A stretch of 35,315 nt of DNA from Gammaproteobacteria bacterium (GTDB taxonomy: Bacteria; Pseudomonadota; Gammaproteobacteria; SZUA-140), in contig JACREF010000031.1 of the NCBI GenBank assembly GCA_016218365.1, positions 1-35,315 on the forward strand, in the 5' to 3' direction. Made by a program: the position numbers and the translations under genes. Position 1 is the stretch's first letter; every line of letters begins with the position of its first letter. The notes under the pieces were generated by a model. The model was given only the letters and a program-made list of their open reading frames with translations. It did not search any database and was not told the DNA's origin. Below, in pieces: positions 1,718-25,783 of the stretch.

Positions 1718-2542
1718 ATGAAAATGTCTCGGCTGTGGATGGCAGGGGGTGTGGGGGCGGTGCTGGTGCTGATCGGCGCCGGGGCCGCGCTCGCCGGCAT
1801 CTTCAATACCAAACATAACCTCGGCAGCAGCGGCGTCAACGCCGCCAGCAACTTCTCCGGCACCGAGGAGATCTGCGTGTTCTGCCATACCCCGCATGGC
1901 GGCGATTCGACCGCCGCGGTGCCGTTATGGAACCGTCACCTCGACCCGGCCGGTTACCAGACCTATGACCAGCGCGGCACCACGACGCTCGACGCCAACA
2001 TCGAGCCGATCGGTTCGGTGTCGGTGGCCTGTCTGTCGTGCCATGACGGCACCCAGGCGATGGACTCGGTGATCAACGAGCCGGGTTCCGGGGCCGATGT
2101 CTGGGCCTTCTCGCAGGGGCGCTGGCGTGGCCAGGCCGCCGCCGTCTCCGGCCGCATCGGGCCGGTGACCGTGATCACCAACCTCGGCAAGGACCTGACC
2201 AACGATCACCCGATCGGCGTGCAGTTTGCCGGTGGCGGTTATGCCGAGGCCAACCCGGCCGGGCCGGGCCGTGACCGCGACTTCCATGCCGCCGAGAGCA
2301 AGGTCGTTGGCAGCACCCGCATCTGGTGGGTCAATACCAGCACCGAGGGCGGCACCGCCGATTTCGAAAAGTCCGACATGAAGCTGTATACCCGGGTGGC
2401 GACCCGCGGCGCCTATGCCGGCGAGCCGCAGCCCTTTGTCGAATGCGCGTCGTGTCATGACCCGCACGTCGATTACAACCCGACCTTTCTGCGCATCAAC
2501 CCGGCCGGCAGCAACGTGTGTCTGACCTGTCACAACAAGTGA
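1718..2542 (+). CDS. Secreted tetraheme cytochrome c (doubled-CXXCH type)
   Basis: A 274-residue periplasmic or exported cytochrome. The signal peptide covers residues 1 to about 25 (hydrophobic core, ALA-G end). Four CXXCH heme sites start at residues 53 (CVFCH), 105 (CLSCH), 243 (CASCH) and 268 (CLTCH). Four further conserved histidines (NTKHN, TPHG, NDHP, DPH) are the right number for bis-His ligation of every heme. The NTKHN...FCHTPHG...LWNR...CLSCHDGT...DHPI...SCHDPH...CHNK layout is a recurrent multiheme module and is repeated at the N-terminus of the 11-heme protein at 11151. The start at 1718 gives a proper signal peptide; a GTG at 1649 would add a long hydrophilic leader. No strong ribosome-binding site is visible. 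It is the first gene of the cytochrome cluster and could be the terminal or filament-forming subunit, which is inference. Confidence 0.88.
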   Translation: MKMSRLWMAGGVGAVLVLIGAGAALAGIFNTKHNLGSSGVNAASNFSGTEEICVFCHTPHGGDSTAAVPLWNRHLDPAGYQTYDQRGTTTLDANIEPIGSVSVACLSCHDGTQAMDSVINEPGSGADVWAFSQGRWRGQAAAVSGRIGPVTVITNLGKDLTNDHPIGVQFAGGGYAEANPAGPGRDRDFHAAESKVVGSTRIWWVNTSTEGGTADFEKSDMKLYTRVATRGAYAGEPQPFVECASCHDPHVDYNPTFLRINPAGSNVCLTCHNK

Positions 2543-2553
2543 CGGGGGAGGGC

Positions 2554-3579
2554 ATGGCAAGGCGGGCCAGGTGTGGTTTGACGGGACGGGCAGTGCTGCA
2601 GGCCGGACTGCTGGCAGTCAGCGCGGGGATGCTGTCGATCGCCGCGGCCGCCGAGACCGTGTTGCGGCCCGGGGTGTTTGCCAGCGTCGATGGTGTCGAG
2701 ATCGCGCGCGAGGAGTTCGAGGTCCATGTCGAGACCGGCCTGCGGCAGCGTTTGTACCATGGTCACGCCGATGCCGCGCGCCTGGCTGCGCTGCGGCGCG
2801 AGATCGGCGAGCAGTTGATTGAGCAGCGCCTGCTGCTGCGCGAGGCGCGGCGGCGCGGCCTGAAGGTGGATCGTGCCGCGGTCGAGGCCGGGGTGCAGCG
2901 GATCGAGGCGCGCTACCGCGACAGCGCGGGTTGGCGCAGCCGGCGCCAGGCCATGCTGGCCAGCCTGCGTGACACGCTGGAACAGGATGATCTGATCCGG
3001 CAGTTGAAGGACAGCATCACGACCGTGGCGCTGCCCGATGAGCGGCAGTTGCGGGCCTGGTATGCCGGGCACGCCGACCGCTTCACGACGCCGGAGCGGC
3101 AGCACGTGGCACTGATCCTGCTGAAGGTCGAGCCGTGGGCGCCCGCGGCCAGCTGGCAGGCGGCACTGGATGAGGGGCAGCGGCTGCGCAGCACGCTGGC
3201 TGCGGGCGCGGATTTTGCCGCGTTGGCGCGGCTGCATTCGGCTGATCCGTCGGCGCAGGCCGGCGGTGACCTGGGGTTCGTCCACCGCGGCATGTTGGCC
3301 GATGAGGCCCAGCAGGTGGTTGACCGGCTGCATGAGAACGAGGTGTCGGCACCGGTCAGGCTGCTGCAGGGGGTGGCGCTGTTTCGCTTGCTGCAGCGCG
3401 CGCCGGCGCACTTGAATCCCTTTGAGCAGGTGAGCGAGCGGGCGCGTGGCCTGTGGCAGCGCGAGCAGGCCGAGCAGGCGTGGCAGCAGGCCAGACAGTC
3501 GCTGCGCCGTCAGGCGCGGGTCGTGGTCGATGAAGCCGCCTACGCGGCAGATAACAACAATGACAAGGCCGCGCCGTGA
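2554..3579 (+). CDS. Periplasmic parvulin-type peptidyl-prolyl isomerase (SurA/PpiC-like chaperone)
   Basis: A 341-residue protein with a signal peptide (about residues 1-32) and an N-terminal helical region rich in Arg, Glu and Leu (about 45-160) that resembles SurA/PrsA chaperone segments. A parvulin domain follows (about 170-285). The domain shows the usual pattern: an ERQHVALILL strand, a helix ending in GADFAALARLHSADPSAQAGGDLGFV, then a final strand GVALFRLL. A Gln/Arg-rich helix closes the protein. Start 2554 is chosen for the GGGGGAGGG ribosome-binding site just upstream. It lies 11 bases after the tetraheme gene and overlaps the start region of the beta-barrel gene. A dedicated isomerase here suggests it helps fold the proline-rich cytochromes or the barrel during export. 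Confidence 0.85.
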   Translation: MARRARCGLTGRAVLQAGLLAVSAGMLSIAAAAETVLRPGVFASVDGVEIAREEFEVHVETGLRQRLYHGHADAARLAALRREIGEQLIEQRLLLREARRRGLKVDRAAVEAGVQRIEARYRDSAGWRSRRQAMLASLRDTLEQDDLIRQLKDSITTVALPDERQLRAWYAGHADRFTTPERQHVALILLKVEPWAPAASWQAALDEGQRLRSTLAAGADFAALARLHSADPSAQAGGDLGFVHRGMLADEAQQVVDRLHENEVSAPVRLLQGVALFRLLQRAPAHLNPFEQVSERARGLWQREQAEQAWQQARQSLRRQARVVVDEAAYAADNNNDKAAP

Positions 3580-3614
3580 TGCACGGCGAGCGGTGGTGGC
3601 TGGCAGGGCGTGAC

Positions 3615-5399
3615 ATGACGGCTAGGGTGGTGATGACGGCGCGGAACAGGGCATGGCTGGCAGCAGCGCTGATGGCGATGCCTGTCCCATTGCTGGCGGC
3701 CGCCTTTGCCGGGACCCCGGAGATCTCGGGCAATCTTGGTTACACCGTACGGTCGATGGTGGGCTCTGACAGCAGCGATTCCTTCAGCAATCAGGGGCGC
3801 GCCTCGCTCAGTGGCAGCAGTTATCTGCTGCAACCGTGGATCGCCAACTATGGCTTTGGTCTCAACATGACCGCCGATCTCAGCTCGACCACCGATGTCA
3901 CCAGCGGCAAGATCCGGAAAAATGCCACCCGGATGGTCACCGGCGATCTGGATATCGGCGTGTTGCCCAGCAGCCATACCCCGTTTCACCTGACCTATCG
4001 CCAGAACGACAGCCGCGTCGATAACTATATTGCCCACAATGCGCTGAATGCGATCCATGACGTTGAATACGCCAGTCAGCGGCTGGCGTTGACCCAGTCG
4101 TTGCTGACCGAGGCCGGTGATCGCTACCAGTTGCGCTATGACAATGATCACTATACCTCAACGCATTCATCGTATGACGATGAGCTGCTGGGGATTGATG
4201 CCGATCTGCGCTTCACCCACCAGACACTGCTGGCCAAGGCCAGCCTGCAGAACACCGACTATTCGATGCTGAGTCAGTCCAGCACCAACCAGGTGCTGAA
4301 CATCGACCATTTCTTTTACCCGAACCGGGTATGGCGGCTCGATACCATGGGCAGTCTGTACCGCTATGACCGGACGTCGCAGCCGGTGGTCAATGCCACC
4401 AACCAGCCGGACAGTACCACCGACCTGTCACAGTTCTCGACCTTCGTGTTTTATCGCCCCGAGGACCGGCCGCTGTCGGTCAGCGGCGGGGTCCGGCTGT
4501 ATGATCTGGCGAGCCAGAACACCGGCAATGCGGTCGCGGTCACCAGCTGGAACGCCACCGCCGGGCTGCTGTACCAGACCACCCGCCACCTGCGCCTCGA
4601 TGCCCGGGCCGATATGATGACCAACAGCGGTGACGGCCAGCAGTCGGACACCACCCAGCAGCGGCTCGGCGCGTTGTATCAGTCTGATCTGTACGCGGTG
4701 TTCGACAGTGCCTCGTATCAGTGGTATCTGTCCGGGTCCGCCGCGCAGCGCGACAGCAGCGGGGCGGCACCGTCGTCGGAGCTGTTGCAGAACCTGCGTT
4801 TTGGCCATGATGTGCTGCAGTCCTGGCGCAGCAGCGAGAGCAGCGGCTGGCGATTGAGCCTGAGCCAGACGGTGGGCGCGGACGTGGTCAGTGGCTCGTC
4901 CGGGGACAGTGACAGCCAGCAGCTGACCCATGCGGCGAGCCTGGGCTGGGACAGCCGCGATGGCAGCGGCAGCAATCTGGCCCAGCTGACCCTGTCAGAT
5001 TCCCGGACCGGTGGCTCCCAGGTCAATGAGCAGCAATTTGCCAATTTCCAGCTGTCACGCAACCAGTCACTGACACCGCGCAGCGACCTGTCCGGAAACC
5101 TGACCGTGCAGACAGTGCGCCAGGTCTTTAACGACGGCGGCGACAGTGTTACAGTTACCACGGCGACCGGTCAGGTGAATTATCAGCATTCGCGTGTCCT
5201 GGGTGTCCCCCGGCTGCGTTTCGGGTCGGACCTGCGGGTATCGCAGGCGGCCTATGATGAGGGGATCGACCGTCTCGAGTGGGAGAATGCGCTGGATTAT
5301 GCCATCGGCCTGGTCGACAGCCGGGCCAGCTGGCGGATGATTGATCTTAACGGTACCCGTTTTGATCTGCTGTATTTGCAGGTCACGCGGCGCTTCTGA
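3615..5399 (+). CDS. Outer-membrane beta-barrel protein, candidate porin of a porin-cytochrome conduit
   Basis: About 594 residues with no cysteine. After a signal peptide the chain is a long series of amphipathic strands separated by Ser/Asp/Gly/Asn-rich turns (for example DSRVDNY, TSTHSSYDD, GSSGDSDSQ). It ends in LLYLQVTRRF, a typical barrel C-terminus with a terminal Phe. Length and composition suit a large barrel of roughly 20 or more strands, comparable with MtrB/PioB-type or Geobacter Omb-type barrels that sheathe cytochromes; I cannot confirm family membership by eye. The frame opens at GTG 3576, overlapping the isomerase stop by 4 bp. Internal ATGs at 3615 and 3633 each follow AGGG and give a more normal signal peptide, so the exact start is uncertain. 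Confidence 0.75.
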   Translation: MTARVVMTARNRAWLAAALMAMPVPLLAAAFAGTPEISGNLGYTVRSMVGSDSSDSFSNQGRASLSGSSYLLQPWIANYGFGLNMTADLSSTTDVTSGKIRKNATRMVTGDLDIGVLPSSHTPFHLTYRQNDSRVDNYIAHNALNAIHDVEYASQRLALTQSLLTEAGDRYQLRYDNDHYTSTHSSYDDELLGIDADLRFTHQTLLAKASLQNTDYSMLSQSSTNQVLNIDHFFYPNRVWRLDTMGSLYRYDRTSQPVVNATNQPDSTTDLSQFSTFVFYRPEDRPLSVSGGVRLYDLASQNTGNAVAVTSWNATAGLLYQTTRHLRLDARADMMTNSGDGQQSDTTQQRLGALYQSDLYAVFDSASYQWYLSGSAAQRDSSGAAPSSELLQNLRFGHDVLQSWRSSESSGWRLSLSQTVGADVVSGSSGDSDSQQLTHAASLGWDSRDGSGSNLAQLTLSDSRTGGSQVNEQQFANFQLSRNQSLTPRSDLSGNLTVQTVRQVFNDGGDSVTVTTATGQVNYQHSRVLGVPRLRFGSDLRVSQAAYDEGIDRLEWENALDYAIGLVDSRASWRMIDLNGTRFDLLYLQVTRRF

Positions 5400-5453: not shown

Positions 5454-5894
5454 ATGTCAGTCAAGACCGAGCGTCGTTATCTGTGGAAGACCCTGTTGCT
5501 GGGGCTGATGGTGTGGGTGGGTGGCATGATGGCACCGCAGCCGGCCCAGGCCGAATATGCCGACGTGGTGATCAACAACTATTCTGATGCGGCCGGCATG
5601 CGCCCGGCGGTGTTTCCACACTGGTTCCATCGCATCCGCTTCCGTTGCAAGGTATGCCATGCCGACCTCGGCTTTCAGTTCAAGGCCGGCGGCAACAAGA
5701 TCACGATGGCCAAGATCATCGATGGCCAGTTCTGCGGCGCCTGCCATAACGGCGAGGTCGCCTGGTCGGTCGAGAATTGCGCGATGTGCCATTCCGGTGT
5801 TCCGGGTACCCCGACCCATTTCCACGGCAGCACGGTACAGCGCCTGATTGCGCCGGTATACCAGCCGCTTAATGACAACAAGAAAGTGCAATAA
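5454..5894 (+). CDS. Triheme c7-type cytochrome, short form
   Basis: A 146-residue secreted cytochrome with a signal peptide to about residue 33 (PAQA-E). CXXCH sites start at residues 65 (CKVCH), 94 (CGACH) and 109 (CAMCH). The order FPHWFHRIRFRCKVCH, then GGNKITMAKIIDGQFCGACHNG, then the third heme is the c7-type triheme domain. FPHWFH supplies candidate distal ligands. The start follows the strong ribosome-binding site AAAGGGGAG. It is the smallest of three paralogous triheme proteins in the cluster and lacks the extra N-terminal domain of the other two. Its likely role is periplasmic electron transfer to or within the conduit. Confidence 0.85.
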   Translation: MSVKTERRYLWKTLLLGLMVWVGGMMAPQPAQAEYADVVINNYSDAAGMRPAVFPHWFHRIRFRCKVCHADLGFQFKAGGNKITMAKIIDGQFCGACHNGEVAWSVENCAMCHSGVPGTPTHFHGSTVQRLIAPVYQPLNDNKKVQ

Positions 5895-5908
5895 GGGGTA
5901 TGGCGACC

Positions 5909-6571
5909 ATGAACTACAAGGCGAATATCACAGTTGTTTCTCTGGTGGCATTGTTGGTGGTGGTGTGTGGCGGTGCGCAGGCGGCACCGGTCCAGCCGAA
6001 GGTCATCCAGCTGGCAGCGGCCGATGTGTCGGATGCCAACATCTTCAACCGCAATCTGAAGAAACCGAAGGCGTATAACCTGCCACCGGCCGAGGATGGC
6101 ATCCACGATGCCGGCAACGATGCGACCCATACGCTGCAAAAGCCGCTGGAGGCCTATCAGGGCCTGCCGACGACCGAGTTCGGCAACCGCATCGACTGGG
6201 TGCAGTCCATCGACAAGGGGCTGCTGAAGCCACGCTGGGACCGGGTTGATCCAAATGAAGAACCGTTCGTCATGGACCTGGACATCGTGCGTCCGGTGAA
6301 GGCCTCGGTGCCGGATGTCGTGTTCCCGCATCGCCAGCATACCGAGTGGCTGTTCTGCTCGAACTGCCATCCGGCCATCTTTATTCCACAGAAGGGTGCC
6401 AACCAGATCAGCATGTCGGCGATCCTGCTCGGCCAGAAGTGCGGGGTCTGCCACGGCAAGGTGTCATTCCCGATTGCCACCAATACCTGCAAGAAGTGTC
6501 ATTCCAAGCCGAAGCCGGCCGACTGGACCCCGCCACTCAGCGAGGCCAGCGTCAAGAATCCTTGGAAGTGA
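5909..6571 (+). CDS. Triheme c7-type cytochrome with extra N-terminal domain
   Basis: About 220 residues. A signal peptide (about 1-25) is followed by a domain with EDGIHDAGND, a Leu-Gln-Lys-Pro helix and RIDWVQSIDKG (about 50-120). The triheme domain follows, with FPHRQHTEWLFCSNCH (heme at 150), CGVCH (178) and CKKCH (194). I prefer ATG 5909 over ATG 5900 because AAGGGG at 5893-5898 is 10 bases from the former and abuts the latter. It is a clear paralogue of the gene at 8254, sharing the DGIHD, DWV and HPAIFIPQKGAN segments. The two flank the cupredoxin-like lipoprotein gene. Confidence 0.85.
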   Translation: MNYKANITVVSLVALLVVVCGGAQAAPVQPKVIQLAAADVSDANIFNRNLKKPKAYNLPPAEDGIHDAGNDATHTLQKPLEAYQGLPTTEFGNRIDWVQSIDKGLLKPRWDRVDPNEEPFVMDLDIVRPVKASVPDVVFPHRQHTEWLFCSNCHPAIFIPQKGANQISMSAILLGQKCGVCHGKVSFPIATNTCKKCHSKPKPADWTPPLSEASVKNPWK

Positions 6572-6618
6572 TGGGCCGTTACTGATCGCGCTGGCAGTTA
6601 CAGGATAGAGGGGTGGAC

Positions 6619-8253
6619 ATGGCTTTCCGGCAGCGGTGGGCGTGGCTTGCGGGAAGTGTGTTGGCAGTTGCGGCCTGCAGCCATGCGCCGACGATCTCCC
6701 CGGTTGGTCAAGACAACGGAGGCCGCCCGATAGCGGCCTCCGTCCCGGTAGAGAAGACTCCACAGGCTGAGGCGGCAACGGCACAGCCGCTGCCTGGTGA
6801 AACAGCCCCGAGCGTGATCGAGACCCCGCTCAGCGTCGCACCGGCCGCCGCGCCAGCCCCCCCGATAATGGTTGAAAGTGCTCAGGCGCCAGCCCGTGCG
6901 GCCGCGCCCGCGGCCACCAAGCCAGCAGCCCCTGTTTCCCAGGACAGCGCAGCGGCAGCCGTGCCTGATGAAAATGCCCCGCACCATCAAAGACGAAGTC
7001 TGCCGATCGACATGATGACCGAGGAAGGTCCGGCCGATTTCGTCATCACTGCCGCAGTCAAGGATCCCAAGCATCCGTTTTACGGCGTCGGTCACACCCA
7101 GGGCCTGGTCGTCAATGGTGAATCAGGCAAGGAGCTGATCGTGGTGCGCGGCCAGGGTTATCTGTTCAAGGTCGACACCGGGGTGCAACACGACTTTTAC
7201 CTGTCGACCAGCCCGCGTGGCTGGGGGGCCGCAACACTGGCCGACGGGGTCAGGGGGAATTTCACCTATAACGGCTTGGTCGAATTCACCCCGGGCCCGC
7301 AGACCCCGGCGCTGGTCTATTACCAGTGCCGCAATCACAAGAACATGGGCAGCATGATCCATGTCGTCAACAAGGGCGACGAGGGTACGGTCAAGCTTGG
7401 CGTCAGGCCTGAGAGCGGTGACGCGGCAGACGCGGCAGCGGCCGCCCGGCCGGCGGCCAATGGCGGTGCGGATTCACCGGCGCGGCAACGGCTGCGCTTT
7501 GCCCAGATGTTCATTGACATGTCACCGGCAACCAAACGTATCGAGTCCGGTAGCAACGGCGAGGCCAAGCTGATGCTGGGCCGTGCCCGGGATACGCTGA
7601 AGCTGGCGCAGCAGTTGCTGGACAAAGGCAAGGATGATGAGGCCCTGGCGCGGATCAATGACGCGATGCAGGCGGTGACCGAGGCCGGCAAGCTGGTGCC
7701 GGATGATAGCCAGCAGGCAGAGCAGAAGGCCCGCTATGATGAGCATGTGCATGCCGTCCAGACCTTCCGCGATTCCTATCAGCGTAATTACAAGCTGATG
7801 ACGCAGAAGAAGGGCAAGAAGGTTCAGGGGCTTGATCTGCAGGATCTCGATGGCAAGGTTGCGCAGGCGCAAGCGCTGGCGGCGGCACAGAAATATGTCG
7901 AGGCCAATCGGCTGCTGGGTGAACTGCAGCGTACCCTGACCACAGGACTGGCGAGTCTGCTTGAGGATGAGGTGGTGTCGTATGAGCTGACCTTTGACTC
8001 GCCGCAGGAACAGTATGAATACGAGCTGTCGCGCTACCACAGCCATGAAGAGCTGGTGCCGCTGGCGATCGAGCAGAAACAGCCGTCCCAGCAGATCCTC
8101 GATCTGATGAACCGCTTTGTTGATCGTGCCAAGGAGATCCACGGGCTGGCGCTGAAGGAAGGCGAGAAAAAGAATTATGGCGAGGCCATCCAGATGCTGG
8201 AGGGTGCAACCAGTCATCTGCAGCGGGCCTTGCAGACGGTGGGGGTGCGCTGA
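6619..8253 (+). CDS. Lipoprotein with cupredoxin-like domain and C-terminal helical repeats
   Basis: A 544-residue protein with a lipoprotein signal (VLAVAAC, lipid Cys at 20) and a long Ala/Pro-rich linker to about residue 130. A beta-rich domain follows (about 140-260). It contains a His in GVQHDF (residue 191) and YYQCRNHKNMGSMIHVV with Cys237, His240 and Met243. His plus C-x2-H-x2-M is the ligand set expected of a cupredoxin-like type-1 copper fold; copper binding is inferred. The C-terminal half (about 290-544) is helical, with TPR-like Ala/Leu/Gln repeats. Start 6619 is chosen over GTG 6613 because AGAGGGG lies 5 bases upstream. I do not recognise the whole architecture. Membrane anchoring and its position between triheme genes suggest a role in electron transfer, copper handling or complex assembly. 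Confidence 0.7.
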   Translation: MAFRQRWAWLAGSVLAVAACSHAPTISPVGQDNGGRPIAASVPVEKTPQAEAATAQPLPGETAPSVIETPLSVAPAAAPAPPIMVESAQAPARAAAPAATKPAAPVSQDSAAAAVPDENAPHHQRRSLPIDMMTEEGPADFVITAAVKDPKHPFYGVGHTQGLVVNGESGKELIVVRGQGYLFKVDTGVQHDFYLSTSPRGWGAATLADGVRGNFTYNGLVEFTPGPQTPALVYYQCRNHKNMGSMIHVVNKGDEGTVKLGVRPESGDAADAAAAARPAANGGADSPARQRLRFAQMFIDMSPATKRIESGSNGEAKLMLGRARDTLKLAQQLLDKGKDDEALARINDAMQAVTEAGKLVPDDSQQAEQKARYDEHVHAVQTFRDSYQRNYKLMTQKKGKKVQGLDLQDLDGKVAQAQALAAAQKYVEANRLLGELQRTLTTGLASLLEDEVVSYELTFDSPQEQYEYELSRYHSHEELVPLAIEQKQPSQQILDLMNRFVDRAKEIHGLALKEGEKKNYGEAIQMLEGATSHLQRALQTVGVR

Positions 8254-8895
8254 GTGGCGCGGTGGAGCAGCAGGGTGCGCTGGCTGGCAGGCGGCATGTC
8301 GCTGGTGATACTGGCCGGTTATCTGGCCATGGCGGTAGCCGCCGAGACCAGGCCCGCTGCAGCGGCAAAGAATGCCGCCACCAAGGCTGGCCAGGACAGG
8401 CCGTTCTGGGCGGGCGGCAAACATTATCAGCTGACCGGTGATGTGGTGCTGGTCGAGAATGACGGTATCCATGATCCGAGCAATGACACGGTCAAGGTGT
8501 TGCAACAGCCATATGAGGCGATGTCCGGTTTTCCGCGCGATACCCAGGGCATCCTTGACTGGGTCAAGGTGCTGGATGACGGCAAGATTGCGCCGCGTGG
8601 CAGCATCGATGGCAGCGAGGAGATGTTTCCGGTTGATTTCGACATCATCTTCAAGAACACGGCATCGATGCCCTTTGTCCGCTTTCCGCATCGGCCGCAT
8701 ACTGAATGGCTGACCTGCGCCAACTGCCATCCGGCCATCTTCATTCCGCAAAAGGGCGCCAACCCGATCACGATGTCACAGATCATCGAGGGAAAATATT
8801 GCGGTGTCTGTCATGGCAAGGTGGCCTTTCCGCCGACGATGAACTGCGGGCGCTGCCACTCGGTGGCGCGTGAGGCGATCCTGATAAACCGTTAA
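8254..8895 (+). CDS. Triheme c7-type cytochrome, paralogue of the gene at 5909
   Basis: A 213-residue protein starting at GTG, directly after the stop of the preceding gene. Residues 1 to about 30 form a signal peptide or N-terminal anchor. A domain with NDGIHDPSND and ILDWVKVLDDG (about 65-115) matches the paralogue at 5909. The triheme domain has CANCH (155), CGVCH (183) and CGRCH (198). FPHRPHTEWL just before the first heme supplies distal His candidates. The shared HPAIFIPQKGAN stretch shows the two arose by duplication, with the lipoprotein gene between them. Confidence 0.85.
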   Translation: MARWSSRVRWLAGGMSLVILAGYLAMAVAAETRPAAAAKNAATKAGQDRPFWAGGKHYQLTGDVVLVENDGIHDPSNDTVKVLQQPYEAMSGFPRDTQGILDWVKVLDDGKIAPRGSIDGSEEMFPVDFDIIFKNTASMPFVRFPHRPHTEWLTCANCHPAIFIPQKGANPITMSQIIEGKYCGVCHGKVAFPPTMNCGRCHSVAREAILINR

Positions 8896-9009
8896 CCGGA
8901 CGCGTGACGGGCGCATGGCCCGTAGGGTCGTTTGATCACTCACAGCATGATGATGAGGCGGGATGGCGGTGCCATTTCCCTGATAACAGCGGTGCGGCAC
9001 GTAGAGGGT

Positions 9010-10053
9010 ATGACAAGAGTGTCTTACAAGGATGGGTTGCTTGGACTGTGCCTCGGCATGGCCCTGATGGCATCCGGTTGCGCGCTGCATCTTCCCGGCA
9101 CGGAGAGACTGGCGGCACGCTCTGGCGCAGTTGACCCGCTGCAGCAATGGACGGTGATCGATGGCGGCAAGACCGGCAACATCCTGTTCGGCTATGTCGT
9201 CATGCGACTGGTGCGTCCGGTCGCTGTGGCGGCACGCGGCAGCCAGATCTATGTCATCGATGCCGGCCAGTCGGAATTATATGCCATCGACCGTGAACGA
9301 CGCCGGATCCGCCGCGTGCTGGATCTGCGTTCGATCACCCGCGGTGAGATCACGGATATCTATGTGGCAGCGGATCTGAGCTATTACCTTGCCGATGTCA
9401 CCAATGATCGGGTGCTTCATTACACCAGCGAAGGCCGGTTGTTGTCCGAGATCCATCTGATGACCGAGGTTCATGACCTGATCCTGACCGGCAAGTCGGT
9501 TGAGATCTCCGTCGATGAACGGACCGGTATGCTGTATGTGGCGGATGGCTACGACGATGATGTGACGATCTATAACTCCGACGGGGTGCTGTTATCCGAG
9601 ATCGGCGAGCGCGGTGACAGCGCAGGGAAATTCCGCGGCCTGACGGCGTTTGCCCGCAGCGACAGCGTCATGTATGTCGGCACCCGTTTCGGCGCCCGGC
9701 GGGTTCAGAAGTTTGACCACACTGGCGCATTCGTCTCGGCGCTGGAGGCCGACACCGTGACCTTTCCGGCGGCGATTGCGGTTGATGAACAGGGCAGGGT
9801 CTATGTCAGTGATAATGCCGACAACACCATCAAGGTGTATGCGAACGACAGGCTGGTTGCCACGCTGGGCGGAACCGGCAGTACGCCGGGGCGCTTCATG
9901 CGGATCACTGATCTGTGGATCGACCAGGGCATGTTGTACGTGGCCGACAGCCTGAATGCCCGTATCCAGCTGCTGCCGCTGAGCGCTGTGCCGGGCCAGA
10001 TTCAGAACCCGTCGCAGAACCCGCCCTCTAATCAGACCACCAGGGGGCAGTAG
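9010..10053 (+). CDS. NHL-repeat beta-propeller lipoprotein 1
   Basis: About 347 residues. A short charged n-region and hydrophobic core end in a lipobox LMASGC (Cys24). The rest is a series of units of about 40-50 residues with the propeller signature of a Tyr/Val-Asp strand, DRVLHYTSEGRLLSEI, RTGMLYVADGYDDDVTIYNSDG, GRVYVSDNADNTIKVY and GMLYVADSLNARIQLL. I count about six blades. The frame is open from 8932. ATG 9010 or GTG 9019 gives a normal lipoprotein signal, and GAGGG at 9004-9008 is better spaced for 9019, so the start is uncertain by a few codons. NHL propellers usually act as scaffolds. It abuts a second NHL lipoprotein, and both probably sit on the outer membrane. Confidence 0.8.
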   Translation: MTRVSYKDGLLGLCLGMALMASGCALHLPGTERLAARSGAVDPLQQWTVIDGGKTGNILFGYVVMRLVRPVAVAARGSQIYVIDAGQSELYAIDRERRRIRRVLDLRSITRGEITDIYVAADLSYYLADVTNDRVLHYTSEGRLLSEIHLMTEVHDLILTGKSVEISVDERTGMLYVADGYDDDVTIYNSDGVLLSEIGERGDSAGKFRGLTAFARSDSVMYVGTRFGARRVQKFDHTGAFVSALEADTVTFPAAIAVDEQGRVYVSDNADNTIKVYANDRLVATLGGTGSTPGRFMRITDLWIDQGMLYVADSLNARIQLLPLSAVPGQIQNPSQNPPSNQTTRGQ

Positions 10054-11154
10054 GTGAGGTCAGGCCGCGGCTTGGCAACGGCCGCGCTGCTGCTGTTGTC
10101 ATGGCTGGCGGTGGGTTGCGCCAGCGCCCCAGTTGTTGCGCCGGGTGTCACGGGCAGCGCGGGTTTCCAGCATCTGCATGTTGACGAGCTGGGCCAGCGC
10201 GACCGGCTGTGGCCGGCGGCGCCCGAACCTGCCCGCTATCGGTTTGTTGGCCAGCTGACCGGCGAGGATAACTTCCCGCGACCGCATGCATCGTTGACCA
10301 GGCGATTTTTTCGCTGGCTGGTGGGCCTGGGTTCGCGGCGGTTGCAGCGGGTGGAGCTGCAGCGTCCGCAGGGGATCTATGGCGACGGGGCCGGGCGCTT
10401 GTATGTCACCGATGTCAGCCGTGGTGCCGTCTATGTGTTTGACGATGCGCAAGGCCGCTTGCAGGTGTGGGAGATGGCCGCCGCCAGGACCCGCTTCGAT
10501 ACCCCGATCGCGATCACCGGTCTTGCCGATGGCAGCCTGCTGGTCACTGACAGCAAACTCGGCAAGGTCGTCAGGCTCAGCCATGACGGGGTGCCGCAGG
10601 GGTATTTCGCCGACGGCGAACTCGAGCGCCCGACCGGTATCGCCCGGGATGCGCAGCGCGGCCGGATCTATATCGCCGACAGCCGCCGGCACCATATCAA
10701 GGTGTTTGACGAGCAGGGGCAGTGGCTGCAGACGCTGGGCAGTCCCGGTGACGGTGCCGGGCAGCTGAATACCCCGACCCACCTGCATGTCGGGCATGAT
10801 GGCAGTCTGTATGTGTCGGATACCCTGAATGCGCGGATCCAGGTGTTTTCCGCCGCCGGCCGGCCGCTGCAGACCGTGGGGCGGCGCGGGCTGTTTGTCG
10901 GTGACATGCCACGACCCAAGGGGGTGGCCACCGACAGTCATGGTCATGTCTATGTGCTGGAATCCTATTACGATTATCTGCTAGTATTTGACGCAGATGG
11001 CAAGTTTCTGCTGCCGATCGGCGGCACCGGCAGCGGTGTCGGCGAGTTCTATCTTCCGGCCGGGATGTGGATAGACGACAACACGGACCGGATCTTCATC
11101 GTCGATGGTTTCAATGGTCGGGTTGTGATTCTTCAGTATCTGGGACAGGCATGA
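10054..11154 (+). CDS. NHL-repeat beta-propeller lipoprotein 2
   Basis: A 366-residue protein starting at GTG immediately after the TAG of propeller 1. The lipobox is LAVGC with lipid Cys at 22. Six or so NHL units follow from about residue 100, for example GRLYVTDVSRGAVYVFD, GRIYIADSRRHHIKVFDEQG, GSLYVSDTLNARIQVFSAAG and GHVYVLESYYDYLLVFDADG. The DTLNARIQ/DSLNARIQ blade is almost the same in propeller 1, so the pair are paralogues. Its TGA overlaps the ATG of the 11-heme cytochrome by 4 bp, implying coupled synthesis. In the Geobacter omcS region, NHL proteins and a prolyl isomerase also accompany nanowire cytochromes (from memory), which suggests an assembly scaffold. Confidence 0.82.
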   Translation: MRSGRGLATAALLLLSWLAVGCASAPVVAPGVTGSAGFQHLHVDELGQRDRLWPAAPEPARYRFVGQLTGEDNFPRPHASLTRRFFRWLVGLGSRRLQRVELQRPQGIYGDGAGRLYVTDVSRGAVYVFDDAQGRLQVWEMAAARTRFDTPIAITGLADGSLLVTDSKLGKVVRLSHDGVPQGYFADGELERPTGIARDAQRGRIYIADSRRHHIKVFDEQGQWLQTLGSPGDGAGQLNTPTHLHVGHDGSLYVSDTLNARIQVFSAAGRPLQTVGRRGLFVGDMPRPKGVATDSHGHVYVLESYYDYLLVFDADGKFLLPIGGTGSGVGEFYLPAGMWIDDNTDRIFIVDGFNGRVVILQYLGQA

Positions 11155-13865
11155 GACGTGGGCGGCTGAATCGGGCGTTGCTGGTCGGCGCTGCATTATT
11201 GACCGTAACCGGGCTGGCCGTGGCCGCGTCGATGGCCGACATTCGCAACACCAAACATAATTTCTCGGCGCTGGTGGTGCCGTCGGCGGTCAACCGCACC
11301 GCCTCGGCCAGCACTGAATCGCAGATCTGCGCCTTCTGTCACACCCCGCATGGCGCCACCGATGCCCCGAAGGCCCCGCTGTGGAACCGCCAGCTGTCCG
11401 GTGCGACCTATATCCCGTACAGCTCGACCTCGATCGATGCCACTGACCTCGGTCAGCCGGGCGGCAAGTCCAAGCTGTGCCTGTCCTGTCATGACGGCAC
11501 GATTGCGCTGGGGTCGGTCAATGTGCTGAACCGGGTCGAGAATCCGCAGATCGGCTTCACCGGCACCCAGTCCGACGGTACGATACCGGAAGGGCCGCAC
11601 GGCGCGAGCACGGGATTTACCCGGCGTCTCGGCGTCGACCTGCGCAACGATCATCCGATCTCGTTCACCTTTGATGCCGCACAGGCGGCGCGCGACACCG
11701 AGCTGTATACGCCGGCCACGGTTGCACACCTGGCCAATCGTGATGCCAAGCAGGGCATCAAGCCGACATTGCCGCTGGAAGACAACAAGGTGGAGTGCAT
11801 CAGCTGCCATGATCCGCATGTGCGCTCCGATGTGCCGGGTGAAAATATCAAGTTCCTGCGCGTCAACCGCTTCCAGCAGCAACCGCCGGTGCAGGGCCAG
11901 TTCGATGCCAAGAATGACCTGATCTGCCTCGGCTGCCATAACAAGGAAGGCTGGGCTGGCTCGGCCCATGCCCATCCGGCCGTGGCTGATGAGCATTATC
12001 AATCCGCAGCGGCGCAGTTGCGGGAGTTTCCGGACAATACCCAGGTGTGGCGGGCGGCGTGCCTGAATTGTCATGATCCGCATACCGTGCAGGGTTCACG
12101 GCGTTTGCTGCGTGAAGGTACCGATGGCCCGGTGACGGTGACCAATCAGGGTGCGCGTTATAAACAGGGCGGCAATCCGGCGATCGAGGAGGTGTGCTGG
12201 GCCTGTCATTCGGCCGATGGCGCGGTGCTGCAGGGCCAGATCGATCCGAGCAACAATCCGGCCTTCCAGGTGCCGGACATCAAGACCGATTTCACGACCA
12301 TGGCGCGCCATATGCCGATCCAGAGCGCGGACCAACCGGCCGGTTATGAGGTGCACAGCATCGGCAGCGGCCCCGGCGACCAGCCGCGGCGTGGCCAGGA
12401 TTTTCTTGAGGACCCGAATAACCTCGGCAAGACCGATCTGACGAATCGCCACGCCGAGTGCACCGATTGCCACAATCCGCACCGCGTCATGAAGAACCGG
12501 TTGTTCAATTCCGACAACAGCACGCCGCACCTGGCCGGCACCCATGCCCACACGCCGGCACAGCTGGCCGAGGCCGGACAGACCAAACACACCAATCTGG
12601 CCTCCGGTGTGCTGCGCGGCATCTGGGGGGTTGAGCCGCAATATGGCTCCACGGCCTTCGGGTCCGCCGGTGTGCCGGCCACCTTTGAGGTCAAACGCGG
12701 TGACCCCGGAGTTAACCCAAATACCGACGTCAGTGCGTCCTATCTGACCCGTGAATACCAGATCTGCTTCAAGTGTCATTCGAACTATGCCTATGGCAAC
12801 GATGTCAGCAATACCGAGGCCGGTAATGGCCCGCCATTGCTCGGCTCGTTCAGTGGTGGTACGCCGTACAGCACCAATGTGATGAAGCAATACACCAATC
12901 AGGCGATGGAGTATCAGTCACCGACGGACCATATGGCGGAAGGGACCTCGGGATCGCCGACCGGCGCCTATGACGGCAGCAGCGGCTGCAGCGTCACCAA
13001 TGCCAGTACCGAGAGCGGCATCAACCTGACGATCAATGGCACGCTCGATCATGACGGCAATTGCACTGACTGGAGGAATGACAATCACCGCTCGTGGCAT
13101 CCGGCGGTCAGGGAGACCGGCCGCACCCCGGCAGTGCGCAAGGCCGATGCCAATGACTGGCGTTCACCGTTCAATCTGGCGGTTGGCGAGCAGACGATGT
13201 ACTGCACCGATTGCCATGGCTCGTCGACCGCGCCGGATACCGTGGTGCCGAACGGCGGCGAGGACGGTTATCCATGGGGACCGCATGGCTCGAACGACAA
13301 CTTCCTGCTCAAGGGCGGCTGGTCGGACCAGACCGGTGTGCCGGCGGCTGGACAGAACGATCTGTGTTTCCGTTGTCACCAGCCCGACCAGTACCGGCCG
13401 ACCGCGGTGCCGGGTGTGGTCCAGCTGAGCGGCTTCCGCATGGCGCTGGGCAGCGGCAGCGGCTGCCTGAGCTTCAAGCTGACCAATCTGCATGTTGCGC
13501 ATGCGACCGGGGTTAACGGGGTTGTGAACTTCCGTTGCACCTATTGCCATATCGCAGTACCGCATGGCTGGAAGAACAAGGCCTTCCTGGCCAACCTCAA
13601 TGATGTTGGGCTGGAGGCGCCGTTACTGGCCGGCGAGGCCGGATCTGCTGACAGCCGTCAGGTGCGCTACACCGGTGCGCCGCAAGGCACCGGCCGTTAT
13701 TACAACGGCCCGTATTACAACGGCGCGGTACTGAAGGTGCGCAAGTTTGCGCGCAGCGGCGAATGGCTGGATGTCAATTGTGGTTCATCCGGTACGCCGG
13801 GTAATGGTATCGCCGGCGTCAGCTGGATGAACAACAACAGCGAGACGTGCCGCAGCCTGCCGTGA
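11151..13865 (+). CDS. Large secreted 11-heme cytochrome c
   Basis: A 904-residue protein with a signal peptide ending near residue 25. CXXCH motifs start at residues 60, 110, 216, 259, 304, 349, 437, 539, 685, 739 and 796. Residues about 28-265 repeat the tetraheme module of the gene at 1718 (NTKHN, CAFCHTPHG, LWNR, CLSCHDGT, LRNDHPI, CISCHDPH, CLGCHNK). The other seven hemes are spread over a longer, Gly/Asn/Ser-rich region. The last 100 residues are heme-free, with YYNGPYYNG and several extra Cys (GCLSF, NCGSS, TCRSLP) that could form disulfides. ATG 11151 overlaps the upstream stop by 4 bp and begins a clean signal peptide. It is probably an exported extracellular or cell-surface electron carrier. 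Confidence 0.88.
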   Translation: MRRGRLNRALLVGAALLTVTGLAVAASMADIRNTKHNFSALVVPSAVNRTASASTESQICAFCHTPHGATDAPKAPLWNRQLSGATYIPYSSTSIDATDLGQPGGKSKLCLSCHDGTIALGSVNVLNRVENPQIGFTGTQSDGTIPEGPHGASTGFTRRLGVDLRNDHPISFTFDAAQAARDTELYTPATVAHLANRDAKQGIKPTLPLEDNKVECISCHDPHVRSDVPGENIKFLRVNRFQQQPPVQGQFDAKNDLICLGCHNKEGWAGSAHAHPAVADEHYQSAAAQLREFPDNTQVWRAACLNCHDPHTVQGSRRLLREGTDGPVTVTNQGARYKQGGNPAIEEVCWACHSADGAVLQGQIDPSNNPAFQVPDIKTDFTTMARHMPIQSADQPAGYEVHSIGSGPGDQPRRGQDFLEDPNNLGKTDLTNRHAECTDCHNPHRVMKNRLFNSDNSTPHLAGTHAHTPAQLAEAGQTKHTNLASGVLRGIWGVEPQYGSTAFGSAGVPATFEVKRGDPGVNPNTDVSASYLTREYQICFKCHSNYAYGNDVSNTEAGNGPPLLGSFSGGTPYSTNVMKQYTNQAMEYQSPTDHMAEGTSGSPTGAYDGSSGCSVTNASTESGINLTINGTLDHDGNCTDWRNDNHRSWHPAVRETGRTPAVRKADANDWRSPFNLAVGEQTMYCTDCHGSSTAPDTVVPNGGEDGYPWGPHGSNDNFLLKGGWSDQTGVPAAGQNDLCFRCHQPDQYRPTAVPGVVQLSGFRMALGSGSGCLSFKLTNLHVAHATGVNGVVNFRCTYCHIAVPHGWKNKAFLANLNDVGLEAPLLAGEAGSADSRQVRYTGAPQGTGRYYNGPYYNGAVLKVRKFARSGEWLDVNCGSSGTPGNGIAGVSWMNNNSETCRSLP

Positions 13866-14854
13866 ACCGCGCCCTTCGCTATCTGGGTTCAACGCGTTTC
13901 ACCTTGCTTGGCATGGCGGCGCTGGCGCTGGGCGCCGCGCTCAGCTATGACAATCCGGCGGGCACGCCGGCATGGGTACTGGTGGTGCCGCTGGCGGCGC
14001 TGGCGCTGAACCTGCTGCTGGCGATGTGCATCAATCCGCGCATCCATCGCCAGTGGGGCCTGCTGGGCTTTCACCTCGGGTTGCTCGGTGTCGTGGTGCT
14101 GGCCGCGATCGGCCGGTTGACGTATATGGAGGCCCATCTGGAACTGGTGACCGGCAGCGCCTTTGATGCCGGGGAGTTGTTTGATGTGCGACGCGGACCG
14201 TGGCATGACGGTGGACTGCAGCAACTGCAATTTGTCCAGGGGCCGTACACCGTTGATTATCGCGCGGGTATGGTGCGCGGCCGGACGCACAGCCAGGTGC
14301 ATGTTGCCGGCCCGCATGGTCAATGGCAGCCGCAGGACGTGGGTGATGACCGGCCATTGCGCGTGCACGGCTATCGTTTCTACACCACGTTCAACAAGGG
14401 TTTTGCCCCGGTGCTGACCTGGATGGCGGACGGCCGCCCGGCGGTGACCGGCACCGTCAACATGCCTGCCTATCCGTTGTTTGATTTCCGGCAACAGAAC
14501 AGCTGGACGCCGCCCGGTGGCCGCGCGATCCGTTTCTGGCTGAAGCTCGACACCGGACGCGATGACCAGCGGGCGTGGCGTCTTGATGTGCGTACGGTCA
14601 GCAGCCGCCTGATCGTCAACAGCGACGAACAGCGCATCGAGCTGTTGCCGGGTCAGCAGGTGCGGCTCGACGGCGGGGTGTTGCGTTATGATCGCCTGGC
14701 GGCATGGATGGGGTATAAACTGTTTTATGATCCAACGCTGCATGCCTTGTTTGCGGCGGCGGTGTTCGGCATCCTCGGTCTGTTTGTGCATTACTGGCGC
14801 ACGATGTTCCGGCAGCCGTTGCCTGGCGCTGACGCCGGGGAGCATCTGCAGTGA
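13862..14854 (+). CDS. ResB/Ccs1-like cytochrome c maturation protein (System II)
   Basis: About 330 residues. I place the start at GTG 13862, which overlaps the TGA of the 11-heme gene (GTGA); an ATG at 13847 would add five residues. Three hydrophobic segments occur early (about residues 10-30, 35-55 and 68-88). A periplasmic domain with many beta strands follows (about 90-280), and a last membrane helix contains His (LHALFAAAVFGILGLFVHYW). This is the layout of ResB (CcsB/Ccs1), which with CcsA exports heme and attaches it to CXXCH apocytochromes. It is shorter than classical ResB proteins of 450-600 residues. Next to CcsA and the cytochromes, a dedicated maturation role is the natural reading. 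Confidence 0.78.
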   Translation: MNRALRYLGSTRFTLLGMAALALGAALSYDNPAGTPAWVLVVPLAALALNLLLAMCINPRIHRQWGLLGFHLGLLGVVVLAAIGRLTYMEAHLELVTGSAFDAGELFDVRRGPWHDGGLQQLQFVQGPYTVDYRAGMVRGRTHSQVHVAGPHGQWQPQDVGDDRPLRVHGYRFYTTFNKGFAPVLTWMADGRPAVTGTVNMPAYPLFDFRQQNSWTPPGGRAIRFWLKLDTGRDDQRAWRLDVRTVSSRLIVNSDEQRIELLPGQQVRLDGGVLRYDRLAAWMGYKLFYDPTLHALFAAAVFGILGLFVHYWRTMFRQPLPGADAGEHLQ

Positions 14855-14887
14855 TTCAGGGACCACTGCGGCACAGGGATGTGCCGC

Positions 14888-14986
14888 CATCGTCAATGAC
14901 AGCGGGTCATTGACGATGAAGGAAAACGAAAACCACGTTTTCCGTTTTCCGTGCCCTGAGAATTCCAGGATGGAATTATTCAGGGC
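14888..14986. other. Three consecutive stem-loops between the resB-like and ccsA-like genes
   Basis: The first is a perfect 13-bp stem CATCGTCAATGAC/GTCATTGACGATG (14888-14900 with 14906-14918) with loop AGCGG. In the second, GGAAAACG plus AAAAC (14921-14933) pairs with GTTTT and CGTTTTCC (14937-14950) around one bulge. In the third, GCCCTGA and AATTCCA (14953-14967) pair with TGGAATT and TCAGGGC (14971-14986) around a small internal loop. Together they fill almost all of the 154-bp gap. No long T-run follows, so this is not a classical terminator. It may be an RNA processing or stability element, or a mobile palindromic repeat. Confidence 0.8.
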
Positions 14987-15008
14987 TTCATTTTAGAGGG
15001 CAGGCGTG

Positions 15009-15848
15009 ATGATGAGCGGTGAAGTGCCATGGCTGTATGCCGGGCTGGCGAGTTATGCGCTGGCTACTGTGCTGGCGTGGCGTGGTCTGACGACGCTGCA
15101 GCTCGCTGTGCCGGCCGTGCAGCGGCGGGCCGAGTATCAGGTATTGATCGCCGTGCTGGCAGGTGTGGCCTTGCTGGTGACGGCGCTGGCGCTGCGCTGG
15201 CAGCGTCTGGGGCACGGACCGTTCGTCAATCTGTTCGAGCTGCTGATGAGCCAGCTGTTCAGTCTCGGTCTGATCTATGCGCTGGTGTACTGGCGGGTGC
15301 CGCAGGTACGGCCGGCGGCGGCAGTCACGCTGGCCTTGTTCTGGGTGCTGGGTCTGTGGATACTGGCGCTCGAGCCGGTCGACAGTGTGCTGCCACCGAC
15401 CTATTCGAATGACTGGTTATGGGCGCATGTCGGTTTCGGCAAGGTCTTTCTGTCATTCTGCCTGGTGGGCAGCGGCATCGCCGGCGTCATCCTGTTGCGG
15501 CGCGCGCACTGGTTCGCCCGTCGCTGCGCACGCCTGCCGGATGATGCTGTACTGGACCAGCTGGCGTGGCGCTTCATGCTGATTGCATTTGTCTTCCACA
15601 GCCTGATGCTGGTGGCCGGTGCAGTGTGGGCCCAGGATGCCTGGGGACGTTACTGGGCGTGGGATGCACTGGAGACCTCATCGTTCCTGAACTGGCTCGG
15701 GCTCGGTGCCGCGCTGCATGCGCGCGCCACCTATCGGGTGCCGGTGCGGGTTGGCGCGGCACTGATCTGTATTCTGTTCGTGTTTGCATTTTTTACCTAT
15801 TTCGGCGCGCCGTTTTACAGTGAGGCGGCGCACAAGGGGGTCATTTGA
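15009..15848 (+). CDS. ccsA: CcsA-like heme exporter/cytochrome c synthase subunit (System II)
   Basis: A 279-residue integral membrane protein with about seven or eight hydrophobic segments. The diagnostic tryptophan-rich WWD-type motif is present as WGRYWAWDALETSSFLNWL (about residues 213-231), preceded by a conserved His in FHSLMLVAG and another in WAHVGFGKVFLSF. These features define the CcsA/CcmC/CcmF heme-handling family, and the size fits CcsA. I choose ATG 15009, 8 bases after AGAGGG; GTG 15006 and ATG 15012 are alternatives. It lies about 150 bp after the resB-like gene, separated by three stem-loops, and just ahead of the TPR gene. Confidence 0.88.
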   Translation: MMSGEVPWLYAGLASYALATVLAWRGLTTLQLAVPAVQRRAEYQVLIAVLAGVALLVTALALRWQRLGHGPFVNLFELLMSQLFSLGLIYALVYWRVPQVRPAAAVTLALFWVLGLWILALEPVDSVLPPTYSNDWLWAHVGFGKVFLSFCLVGSGIAGVILLRRAHWFARRCARLPDDAVLDQLAWRFMLIAFVFHSLMLVAGAVWAQDAWGRYWAWDALETSSFLNWLGLGAALHARATYRVPVRVGAALICILFVFAFFTYFGAPFYSEAAHKGVI

Positions 15849-16498
15849 CGGTGGGTCGATTATCCGATGCGCTGGTCAGTGCCGGATCGTTGCTGGTGGT
15901 CGCGGCAGTGCTGGGTGTGCTGGTGGTGCTGGCGCGCCAGCCGGCGCTGCAGCAGTTCATGCCGGCACAGATCCATCGCGGCGGCGCGGTCAATGATGAA
16001 TTGACGGTGCGCTTCCAGCAGGCGGCGATGATGTTGCATGCCGGCCGTTATGATCATGCGCTGGCGGCATTGCATCGCGTGCTGGAGCTCTCGCCCCGTT
16101 TGCCCGAGGCCCATGTCAACATAGGCTATGCCTTGCTGGGGCTGGGCAAGCTGGAGGCGGCGCGGGGGTTTTTCCTCAGCGCCATTGATCTGCGACCCTA
16201 TCAGGGCAATGCCTATTGGGGGCTGGCCCAGGTCTATGAACAGCAGGGCGACCTGCCGGCCGCCCTCGGCGCCATGCGCACCTACATCCATCTGGCGCCA
16301 CCCAATGACCCCTATGTGCGACGCGCCCGCTCCGCTCTGTGGGAATGGGAACAACAGTTGCAGCGTGGTCCATTGCCCGAGGCCGAGCAGCGCTTCCTCG
16401 ACCAGGGTGCGCGGCAGTGGGAGGATCGCAACAGCCCGCAACTCGACAGTGCCGATCCGCCACCGTCCGGCATGACGGATGCTCCGCTGCAGCCATGA
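15845..16498 (+). CDS. Membrane-anchored TPR protein of the cytochrome cluster
   Basis: About 217 residues. An N-terminal membrane helix (about 10-30: ALVSAGSLLVVAAVLGVLVV) is followed by at least three TPR units (about 55-155), including GRYDHALAALHRVLELSPRLPEAHVNIGYALLGLGKLEAA. A Pro/Ser-rich acidic tail closes the protein. The start is uncertain: TTG 15845 overlaps the ccsA stop and follows AAGGGGG, and GTG 15851 is also possible. TPR proteins such as CcmI/CcmH and NrfG present apocytochromes to the heme ligation machinery in System I. Between ccsA and a thiol oxidoreductase gene, a similar apocytochrome-holding role is plausible but unproven. Confidence 0.75.
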   Translation: MTVGRLSDALVSAGSLLVVAAVLGVLVVLARQPALQQFMPAQIHRGGAVNDELTVRFQQAAMMLHAGRYDHALAALHRVLELSPRLPEAHVNIGYALLGLGKLEAARGFFLSAIDLRPYQGNAYWGLAQVYEQQGDLPAALGAMRTYIHLAPPNDPYVRRARSALWEWEQQLQRGPLPEAEQRFLDQGARQWEDRNSPQLDSADPPPSGMTDAPLQP

Positions 16499-17124
16499 AG
16501 ACGCTGCTGGCCTTGTGCATCGCAGTGTGGTCGTGGCCAGTGATGGCGACGCCGCCATCGTTTCAGGCCGGGGTGCATTATCAGCTCATTGAGCCGCGCC
16601 CGCCGCTGACCACGGCCGCGGGCAGGGTCGAGGTCATCGAGCTGTTCTGGTATGGCTGCCAGACCTGTTTTGCCATTCAGCCTGAATTGACGCGCTGGCT
16701 GCAGCAGCATCAGGCCCAGGTCAGCGTGCTGCGGGTGCCGGCATTGACCGAGCCGCAGATGCTGCCGCTGGCCCAGGCCTATTATGTCGCGGCCGAGCTG
16801 GGCATCCTCGGCCGGGTCCATGAGCGCTTGTATAACGCGGTGCATCGCCAGCAGCGGCCACTGCGTGATATGGCGGACGTGGCACGGCTGTTCGCCGAGT
16901 ACGGCGTCGATGCCCGGCGTTTCAATACCACGCTCCATGGCCGCGCGGTCGGTGAAAAGATCCGCCAGGCCCGGCTGCTGGGGCAACGGCTGCGGATTCG
17001 TGGCGCGCCGACGCTGATCATTGATGGCCGTTATCGCCTCGATGCCTCGATGGTCGGCAATGCGCGCGAGATGATGGCAGTGCTTGATTATCTGGTGCGG
17101 CAGGCGCAGACCCCGGCGCGGTGA
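16495..17124 (+). CDS. DsbA-like periplasmic thiol:disulfide oxidoreductase
   Basis: A 209-residue protein with a signal peptide to about residue 18 (VMA-TPP). The thioredoxin-fold active site is FWYGCQTCF, with Cys55 and Cys58. A helical insert follows, and the cis-proline loop is RGAPTLIIDG (Pro172). These positions match DsbA, whose usual site is CPHC; the CQTC dipeptide should alter the redox potential. ATG 16495 overlaps the TPR gene stop by 4 bp. In the cytochrome cluster it may keep heme-binding or structural cysteines in the correct redox state. Whether it oxidises or reduces cannot be told from sequence. Confidence 0.85.
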   Translation: MKTLLALCIAVWSWPVMATPPSFQAGVHYQLIEPRPPLTTAAGRVEVIELFWYGCQTCFAIQPELTRWLQQHQAQVSVLRVPALTEPQMLPLAQAYYVAAELGILGRVHERLYNAVHRQQRPLRDMADVARLFAEYGVDARRFNTTLHGRAVGEKIRQARLLGQRLRIRGAPTLIIDGRYRLDASMVGNAREMMAVLDYLVRQAQTPAR

Positions 17125-17178
17125 CGGGGTGTTCACGCCATGCCGGACTTGGCATACTGGGATGCGACAGGAGGGGGC

Positions 17179-22492: not shown

Positions 22493-23448
22493 TCAGACCA
22501 CAGCAGCAACAACAGCGCCGAAGATAATGGCAGCCAGAACAGCTCATGATGTCTGGCGGCACTGGGATCTGTCACCCTGCCCGGTTCCAGGTGATCGATC
22601 TCGGCGAAGGCCTGATCCAGCGTGTGTTGCGCGGTTATATGAAAGAAGCGGCCGCCGCAGCTGGCAGCGATCTGCTGCAACAGCGCGGTGTCGGGCGGCA
22701 GCGCCGTGGTCAGTGGTGGCAGCACCGGACCGCGCGGAAAGGCCACCTTGCCGGCAGTGCCCAGCGCTACTGTATAGATACGGACATGGTGTTGCCGGCA
22801 GAGCTCCAGAGCCTGCAGAGGGCTCAGCCTGCCGGCGGTATTCGCGCCATCCGTCAGCAGTATCAGGATGCGTGAGGTGTCGACGTGCTGCAGCCGGTGG
22901 CTGGCCAGTGCGATCGCATCACCGAGTGCGGTACGTTCACCGGCCAGTCCCTGCTGCAGGTCGGCCAGCAGCCCGGTCAGCAATGCGTGATCGGTGGTTA
23001 ATGGCACATAGGTGACGGCATCATCGGCAAAGGCGATGATGCCGATCCGGTCGCCGGCACGGCGGGCGATGAAGCCGGGCAGCTGCTGTTTAAGCATGTC
23101 GAGGCGGCTGATCGCTTGCCTGTCATGCTGGTAATCCAGCGTGCGCATCGAGCCCGAGACATCGATGGCCAGCATGATGTTGTGTGCCGGATGTCCGCTT
23201 GCCGTAGGCCCGATGATCCACAGCGGACGTGTCAATGCCAGGCATAACAGGGCGATGCCCAGCCACCAGGGCCAGCGCGCCGTCCTGTTATGGTCGGCTG
23301 TGACCAGTGTCGCCAGCAGCCTGGTCTGGGGATGCAGCAGGGACGGCAGGCGCAGCGGGCGCTGGGTGCTGAGACGTGAGGACAGCCACAGTACTGTGAT
23401 GATCAGCGGCAGAGCCAGCAACCAGTGTGGCGCGGCCAGTGTCAGCAC
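22459..23448 (-). CDS. VWA domain membrane protein (BatA-like)
   Basis: A 329-residue protein. Two N-terminal hydrophobic segments (about 5-20 and 60-80) precede the VWA domain, with MIDAS motif DVSGSMRTLD (about 94-103), a conserved Thr in GERTALGDAI, and LLTDGANTAG. A final membrane helix is near the C-terminus (FWLPLSSALLLLLWSEWRSR). The GTG start overlaps the end of the DUF4381-like gene by 7 bp. Paired VWA proteins next to MoxR and DUF58 form the standard MoxR/Bat module, thought to assemble or chaperone metal-bound or envelope complexes. Confidence 0.87.
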   Translation of the reverse strand: MLTLAAPHWLLALPLIITVLWLSSRLSTQRPLRLPSLLHPQTRLLATLVTADHNRTARWPWWLGIALLCLALTRPLWIIGPTASGHPAHNIMLAIDVSGSMRTLDYQHDRQAISRLDMLKQQLPGFIARRAGDRIGIIAFADDAVTYVPLTTDHALLTGLLADLQQGLAGERTALGDAIALASHRLQHVDTSRILILLTDGANTAGRLSPLQALELCRQHHVRIYTVALGTAGKVAFPRGPVLPPLTTALPPDTALLQQIAASCGGRFFHITAQHTLDQAFAEIDHLEPGRVTDPSAARHHELFWLPLSSALLLLLWSEWRSRHQVLPC

Positions 23449-25749: not shown

Positions 25750-25783
25750 GTGCATGCTCCCACTTCAATGATTGCCGTGATGC

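Follow-up and report, generated by a model that had tools for sequence, protein, structure and literature searches.

UetF, the middle subunit of a Uet-type porin-cytochrome conduit, very probably carries a blue-copper (type-1) domain, as predicted from its sequence and modelled structure. The uetF gene described here lies at positions 6619–8253 (+ strand) of a 35,315-nucleotide gammaproteobacterial contig (JACREF010000031.1), hereinafter designated the window, which is contig C17 of a genome of 2.26 Mb that is 97% complete and in which the gene is single-copy. The most likely function of the protein is that of a putative periplasmic one-electron copper relay from the Uet trihemes to the respiratory chain. 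A named subunit is given a new interpretation here and an evolutionary variant of it is recognised; the system itself is not new.

The window contains a multihaem operon on the + strand. Specifically, the UetA position is occupied by a tetraheme cytochrome with four CXXCH motifs (1649–2542), the UetB position by a PpiC-type peptidyl-prolyl isomerase with a Pfam match (2518–3579), the UetC position by a putative β-barrel porin (3576–5399), and the UetD and UetE positions by c7-type triheme cytochromes (5454–5894 and 5900–6571). Downstream of the uetF gene are a third c7-type triheme cytochrome at the UetG position (8254–8895), two NHL-repeat proteins with Pfam matches at the UetH and UetI positions (8932–10053 and 10054–11154), and an undecaheme cytochrome with 11 CXXCH motifs at the UetJ position (11067–13865). 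UetA, UetB, UetD/E/G, UetH/I, and UetJ are thus present in order, with CXXCH counts of 4, 3/3/3, and 11. The UetC-position reading frame (607 residues) is assigned by synteny; it is conserved and rightly placed, but matches no Pfam or NCBIfam family, and the barrel is putative. A cytochrome c maturation set, consisting of ResB, CcsA, TPR, and DsbA-like genes (13847–17124, +), follows, as it does 3’ of uetJ in relatives. Directly 3’ of this set, a 691-residue protein with Big_5/CopC-like domains is encoded at 17140–19215 (+), and a Bat/MoxR-type set (BatD, two VWA proteins, DUF58, and a MoxR-type AAA ATPase) occupies 19209–25755 on the opposite (−) strand.

The order tetraheme, isomerase, barrel, c7, c7, UetF, c7, NHL, NHL, undecaheme is kept in relatives across many families. 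The slot between UetE and UetG is filled, by position and by homology, in relatives that include a Ca. Tenderia MAG (locus L077), where a protein with the same cupredoxin domain has the same place in the operon. Because both the slot and the neighbour order match the Uet operon, and because the Ca. Tenderia MAG has the same domain, the window gene is uetF. The original prediction had correctly placed the gene among cytochromes.

The operon uetABCDEFGHIJ (undecaheme electron transfer) was reportedly named by Eddie et al. in 2022. Its composition has been published for Tenderiales and some Gallionella and is the same as in the window (PMC10734462). In Ca. Tenderia electrophaga, Tel_16515, Tel_16520, and Tel_16530 encode the trihemes and Tel_16545 the undecaheme cytochrome, and the UetF slot holds Tel_16525, which was described as a tetratricopeptide protein with a possible role in aligning cytochromes; the triheme genes are among the most highly expressed, and Tel_16525 is apparently cotranscribed with them (PMC5371394). 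The window protein and Tel_16525 (Eddie et al. 2017, 2022) therefore share the slot between trihemes E and G and the neighbour order, whereas only a TPR domain is given for Tel_16525 in the 2017 text, with no mention of copper, and a cupredoxin domain is predicted for window UetF. Within the Uet literature covered, which includes PMC5371394 but not the 2022 naming paper, copper is not mentioned for the UetF slot. The architecture had been called undescribed; that label has to be given up for the gene, which has a name and a published TPR description.

The window reading frame ends at the stop codon at 8253 and could start at GTG 6613 or ATG 6619. The latter is likelier, since an AGAGGGG stretch lies just 5’ of it (6607–6613), and it gives a protein of 544 residues plus stop, composed of a lipobox, an Ala/Pro linker, a cupredoxin domain, and a helical domain, as delimited by the reading frame, the homologue alignment, and the AlphaFold2 model. 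The signal peptide runs to the lipobox VAA-C20 (6619–6678) and is followed by Ser at +2, which by the Lol rule would sort the lipoprotein to the outer membrane. A disordered linker of 117 residues (21–137; 6679–7029), 41% Ala plus Pro, leads to the cupredoxin-fold domain (residues 138–256; 7030–7386), and the helical domain (residues 287–541; 7477–8241) contains 10 helices. A lipoprotein with an Ala/Pro linker is thus what had been proposed. The long lipid-tethered linker is real in the window protein but is not general: the lipobox pattern is present in 24 of the 46 aligned UetF homologues, about half, and soluble-type relatives whose linkers span 14–19 residues also occur.

An AlphaFold2 model computed from the 46-sequence alignment predicts a β sandwich at residues 140–260 with pLDDT above 90, a helical domain that is mostly above 90 with one dip near residues 451–460, and disordered linkers at residues 19–137 and 266–283. 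In a fold search, the top PDB match of the β part is Hyphomicrobium nitrite reductase through its N-terminal cupredoxin domain (Z 9.3), and further cupredoxin matches include two-domain laccases (Z about 8.6), rusticyanin (Z 8.4), and plastocyanin. Because Z scores of 8–9 are moderate, the cupredoxin assignment was put to a second, profile-based test. In hhalign, the domain profile aligns with PF00127 proteins of the same class at a probability of 89.5%, against 1.5% and 0.9% for reversed controls, and all four residues His191, Cys237, His240, and Met243 fall on copper ligands. Against a narrower PF00127 set, the probability is 22% and the ligand register is unchanged. The same four residues are thus predicted as type-1 copper ligands by two separate routes, the model with its fold search and the profile alignment.

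The window protein has no match to PF00127 (Copper-bind) at E values up to 1 and none of the 46 members has one at E values up to 0.01; no Pfam copper-protein family matches the window protein. PF25489 (At5g54830-like) matches 37 of the 46 members over the cupredoxin region at E values up to 0.01 (best 1.6e-08), while the window protein scores 19.4 bits, under the family cut-off of 27 bits. PF25489 takes its name from a plant protein and points to no function for UetF. Sequence searches of solved structures returned nothing beyond weak matches, designed helical proteins among them, and no relative was found in the viral contigs searched.

The predicted ligands, the free periplasmic Cys included, rank with the best-conserved positions of the domain. 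The codons of His191 (7189–7191), Cys237 (7327–7329), His240 (7336–7338), and Met243 (7345–7347) are exactly where the original prediction had placed them, counted from 6619. Among the 46 aligned homologues, which are 30–42% identical to the window protein and many of which were found by a scan whose pattern contained Cys and His, the first three are zero-entropy columns and Met243, the predicted axial ligand, is kept in 45. Whole-protein searches that were not conditioned on the motif give the same picture, with Cys-x2-His-x2-Met in 74 of 76 cupredoxin-containing reading frames; the two exceptions are a fragment from a broken frame and the paralogue outside the operon that is also the sole Met243 exception. 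This paralogue (L064:9902–11221) has CRNHKYAGG in place of the motif and lacks a conserved His152 as well. In another locus (L085:9620–11276), the UetF frame is broken within the cupredoxin domain by a frameshift or an assembly error, and the cluster is otherwise intact. The homologues have exactly one Cys in their mature domains, as does the window protein. Cys237, the predicted copper thiolate ligand, is the sole Cys besides the lipidated one and therefore neither forms an internal disulfide nor ligates a haem. Structure prediction and ligand conservation, two checks named in the original prediction, thus both turned out in its favour: the best PDB matches are cupredoxins, no loss of ligands was seen in close homologues, and a type-1-like His/Cys/His/Met set does reside in a protein encoded within a multihaem conduit operon.

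UetF has in common with type-1 cupredoxins (plastocyanin/pseudoazurin/amicyanin and rusticyanin) the predicted fold, the His...Cys-x2-His-x2-Met order, and the PF00127 register. It differs from them by its fusion partners, a conserved helical domain and, in the window protein, a lipid-tethered linker. Gallionella and other genomes also encode the cupredoxin domain alone, or nearly so, at sites apart from Uet genes (L080:5767–6450, L081:9674–10384, L152:7262–8065, and L164:6587–7477). In Sideroxydans ES-1 grown on magnetite, the cupredoxin-domain proteins Slit_1816–1818 have been connected with the uptake of electrons from solid iron; unlike UetF, two of these have multicopper oxidase motifs, and they belong to another kind of cluster that is not a porin-cytochrome operon (PMC12016527).

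The C-terminal part was said to consist of TPR-like helices. It is indeed helical and shares homology with the helical-only proteins that copper-less Uet clusters encode, as described below, but it is not recognised as a TPR domain: Pfam TPR models match none of the 46 members at E values up to 0.01, whereas the TPR gene at 15845 scores strongly. The Pfam scan gave weak YfdX and FliS matches in this part. The fold-search list was taken up by cupredoxin matches, and the helical fold was barely probed by it.

Relatives were found at 51 loci of named genomes, which by title are Gammaproteobacteria or Gallionellaceae/Nitrosomonadales, one being labelled only Proteobacteria. Of the 39 genomes with a UetC homologue in a class-wide sample, 32 have a cupredoxin UetF; five of the other seven have helical-only proteins in the slot, one has none in the cluster, and in one the contig is too short to tell. 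In a phylum sample, the matches outside the class are helical-only and usually tandem pairs. There is thus a divergent Uet form, described here for the first time, in other classes and in some Gammaproteobacteria, with helical-only slot proteins and usually a fourth triheme gene. Loci without any cupredoxin are L146, L147, L149, L158, L161, and L242–L256, where the helical-only protein is usually a tandem pair (none in L158) and the fourth triheme c7 gene lies 5’ of an NHL gene. Because these copper-less clusters exist and retain the helical part, copper is not essential to a Uet-type conduit.

The two forms mostly differ in the number of triheme genes. In all 44 intact loci with cupredoxin UetF, a count that includes some genomes represented twice, the stretch from the barrel to UetJ holds exactly three triheme genes and two NHL genes, while 20 intact clusters that lack cupredoxin UetF carry four c7-type genes and, for the most part, a single NHL gene. 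There are two exceptions: G352 has a helical-only pair with three trihemes and two NHL genes, and Gallionellaceae BIN13 has a Uet cluster (L241) with four trihemes, no UetF, and two undecaheme genes. A strict rule that copper replaces one triheme is weakened by both. Four UetF-like genes of the cupredoxin-helical type (L058, two copies at L059, and L064) lie elsewhere in the BIN13 genome, with no cytochrome cluster around them.

In a UetJ tree rooted on other classes, helical-only clusters are basal and 23 copper-type sequences group in a single clade (SH-aLRT 100), close to which lies one further copper sequence on a long branch; the copper form is derived on this tree. A separate tree does not reject the copper-less gammaproteobacterial clusters as a single group (p-AU 0.46). 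Together, these results suggest that the copper domain was probably gained once, and the association between copper and one fewer triheme rests on about one evolutionary change. A possible scenario, which we put forward tentatively, is that a haem-only conduit was rebuilt in one gammaproteobacterial lineage: the tandem helical pair would have given way to a cupredoxin-helical fusion, one of four trihemes would have been lost around the same time, and some of the periplasmic relaying would have passed to copper, probably at a higher potential.

We consider it probable that UetF is a periplasmic subunit of the conduit with one type-1 copper, in which the helical domain docks or scaffolds and the copper relays electrons from the trihemes to a periplasmic acceptor. 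Specifically, UetF would be lipid-anchored in this organism, probably at the inner face of the outer membrane. External electrons would arrive at the trihemes UetD, UetE, and UetG, which the helical domain would dock or hold in place, by way of UetA/J and the outer-membrane barrel, and the copper centre would hand the electrons singly to a periplasmic acceptor and on to a terminal oxidase or into reverse electron flow. Where it is present (in the window protein and about half of the homologues), the long lipid-tethered linker would allow the copper domain to move from one partner to another. Given that the blue-copper domain is very probable in a protein of the Uet operon, one carrier on the inward route is probably copper and not haem. 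The consistent presence of three trihemes in the 44 cupredoxin loci, versus four in nearly all others, speaks for such a predicted redox role.

It is unlikely, although conceivable, that UetF is mainly a scaffold whose helical domain lines up the trihemes as a bridge, with a stabilising or secondary copper domain off the electron path. The Ca. Tenderia gene has been interpreted in this way in print (PMC5371394), and helical-only relatives do occupy the same slot in copper-less clusters; a spectator domain, however, would not need copper ligands, including a free periplasmic Cys, that are among its most conserved residues. The same conservation across in-operon homologues, in register with copper proteins, makes it highly improbable that the site binds another metal or none and that the fold is vestigial, as the Met-less paralogue outside the operon might suggest.

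Cupredoxin folds are generally known in copper-handling proteins, but we regard delivery of copper to an oxidase or its storage as a very improbable task for this domain, since the gene travels with cytochromes and its His, Cys, His, and Met, with an amicyanin-like Cys-x2-His-x2-Met loop, form what we take to be a ligand set of the electron-transfer type. A copper sensor had been offered in the original prediction as an alternative to a carrier, and the domain could act as a sensor or redox switch, adjusting how the conduit is assembled or gated according to copper or potential. In Ca. Tenderia, Tel_16525 peptides are more abundant at a suboptimal electrode potential (PMC5371394), which speaks for a switch; carrier amounts also vary with potential, however, and no regulator or signalling partner is found among the annotated neighbours in the window, which makes this reading improbable and leaves the sensor option without a partner there.

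The host genome encodes RuBisCO and a haem-copper oxidase, which is consistent with autotrophy and an aerobic electron sink. Uet is a proposed route for electron uptake from solids by uncultured electroautotrophs and iron oxidisers, and the predicted blue-copper centre in its middle subunit is a candidate carrier for the electrons that leave the trihemes. Clusters with and without copper constitute a natural experiment on what copper contributes to the conduit.
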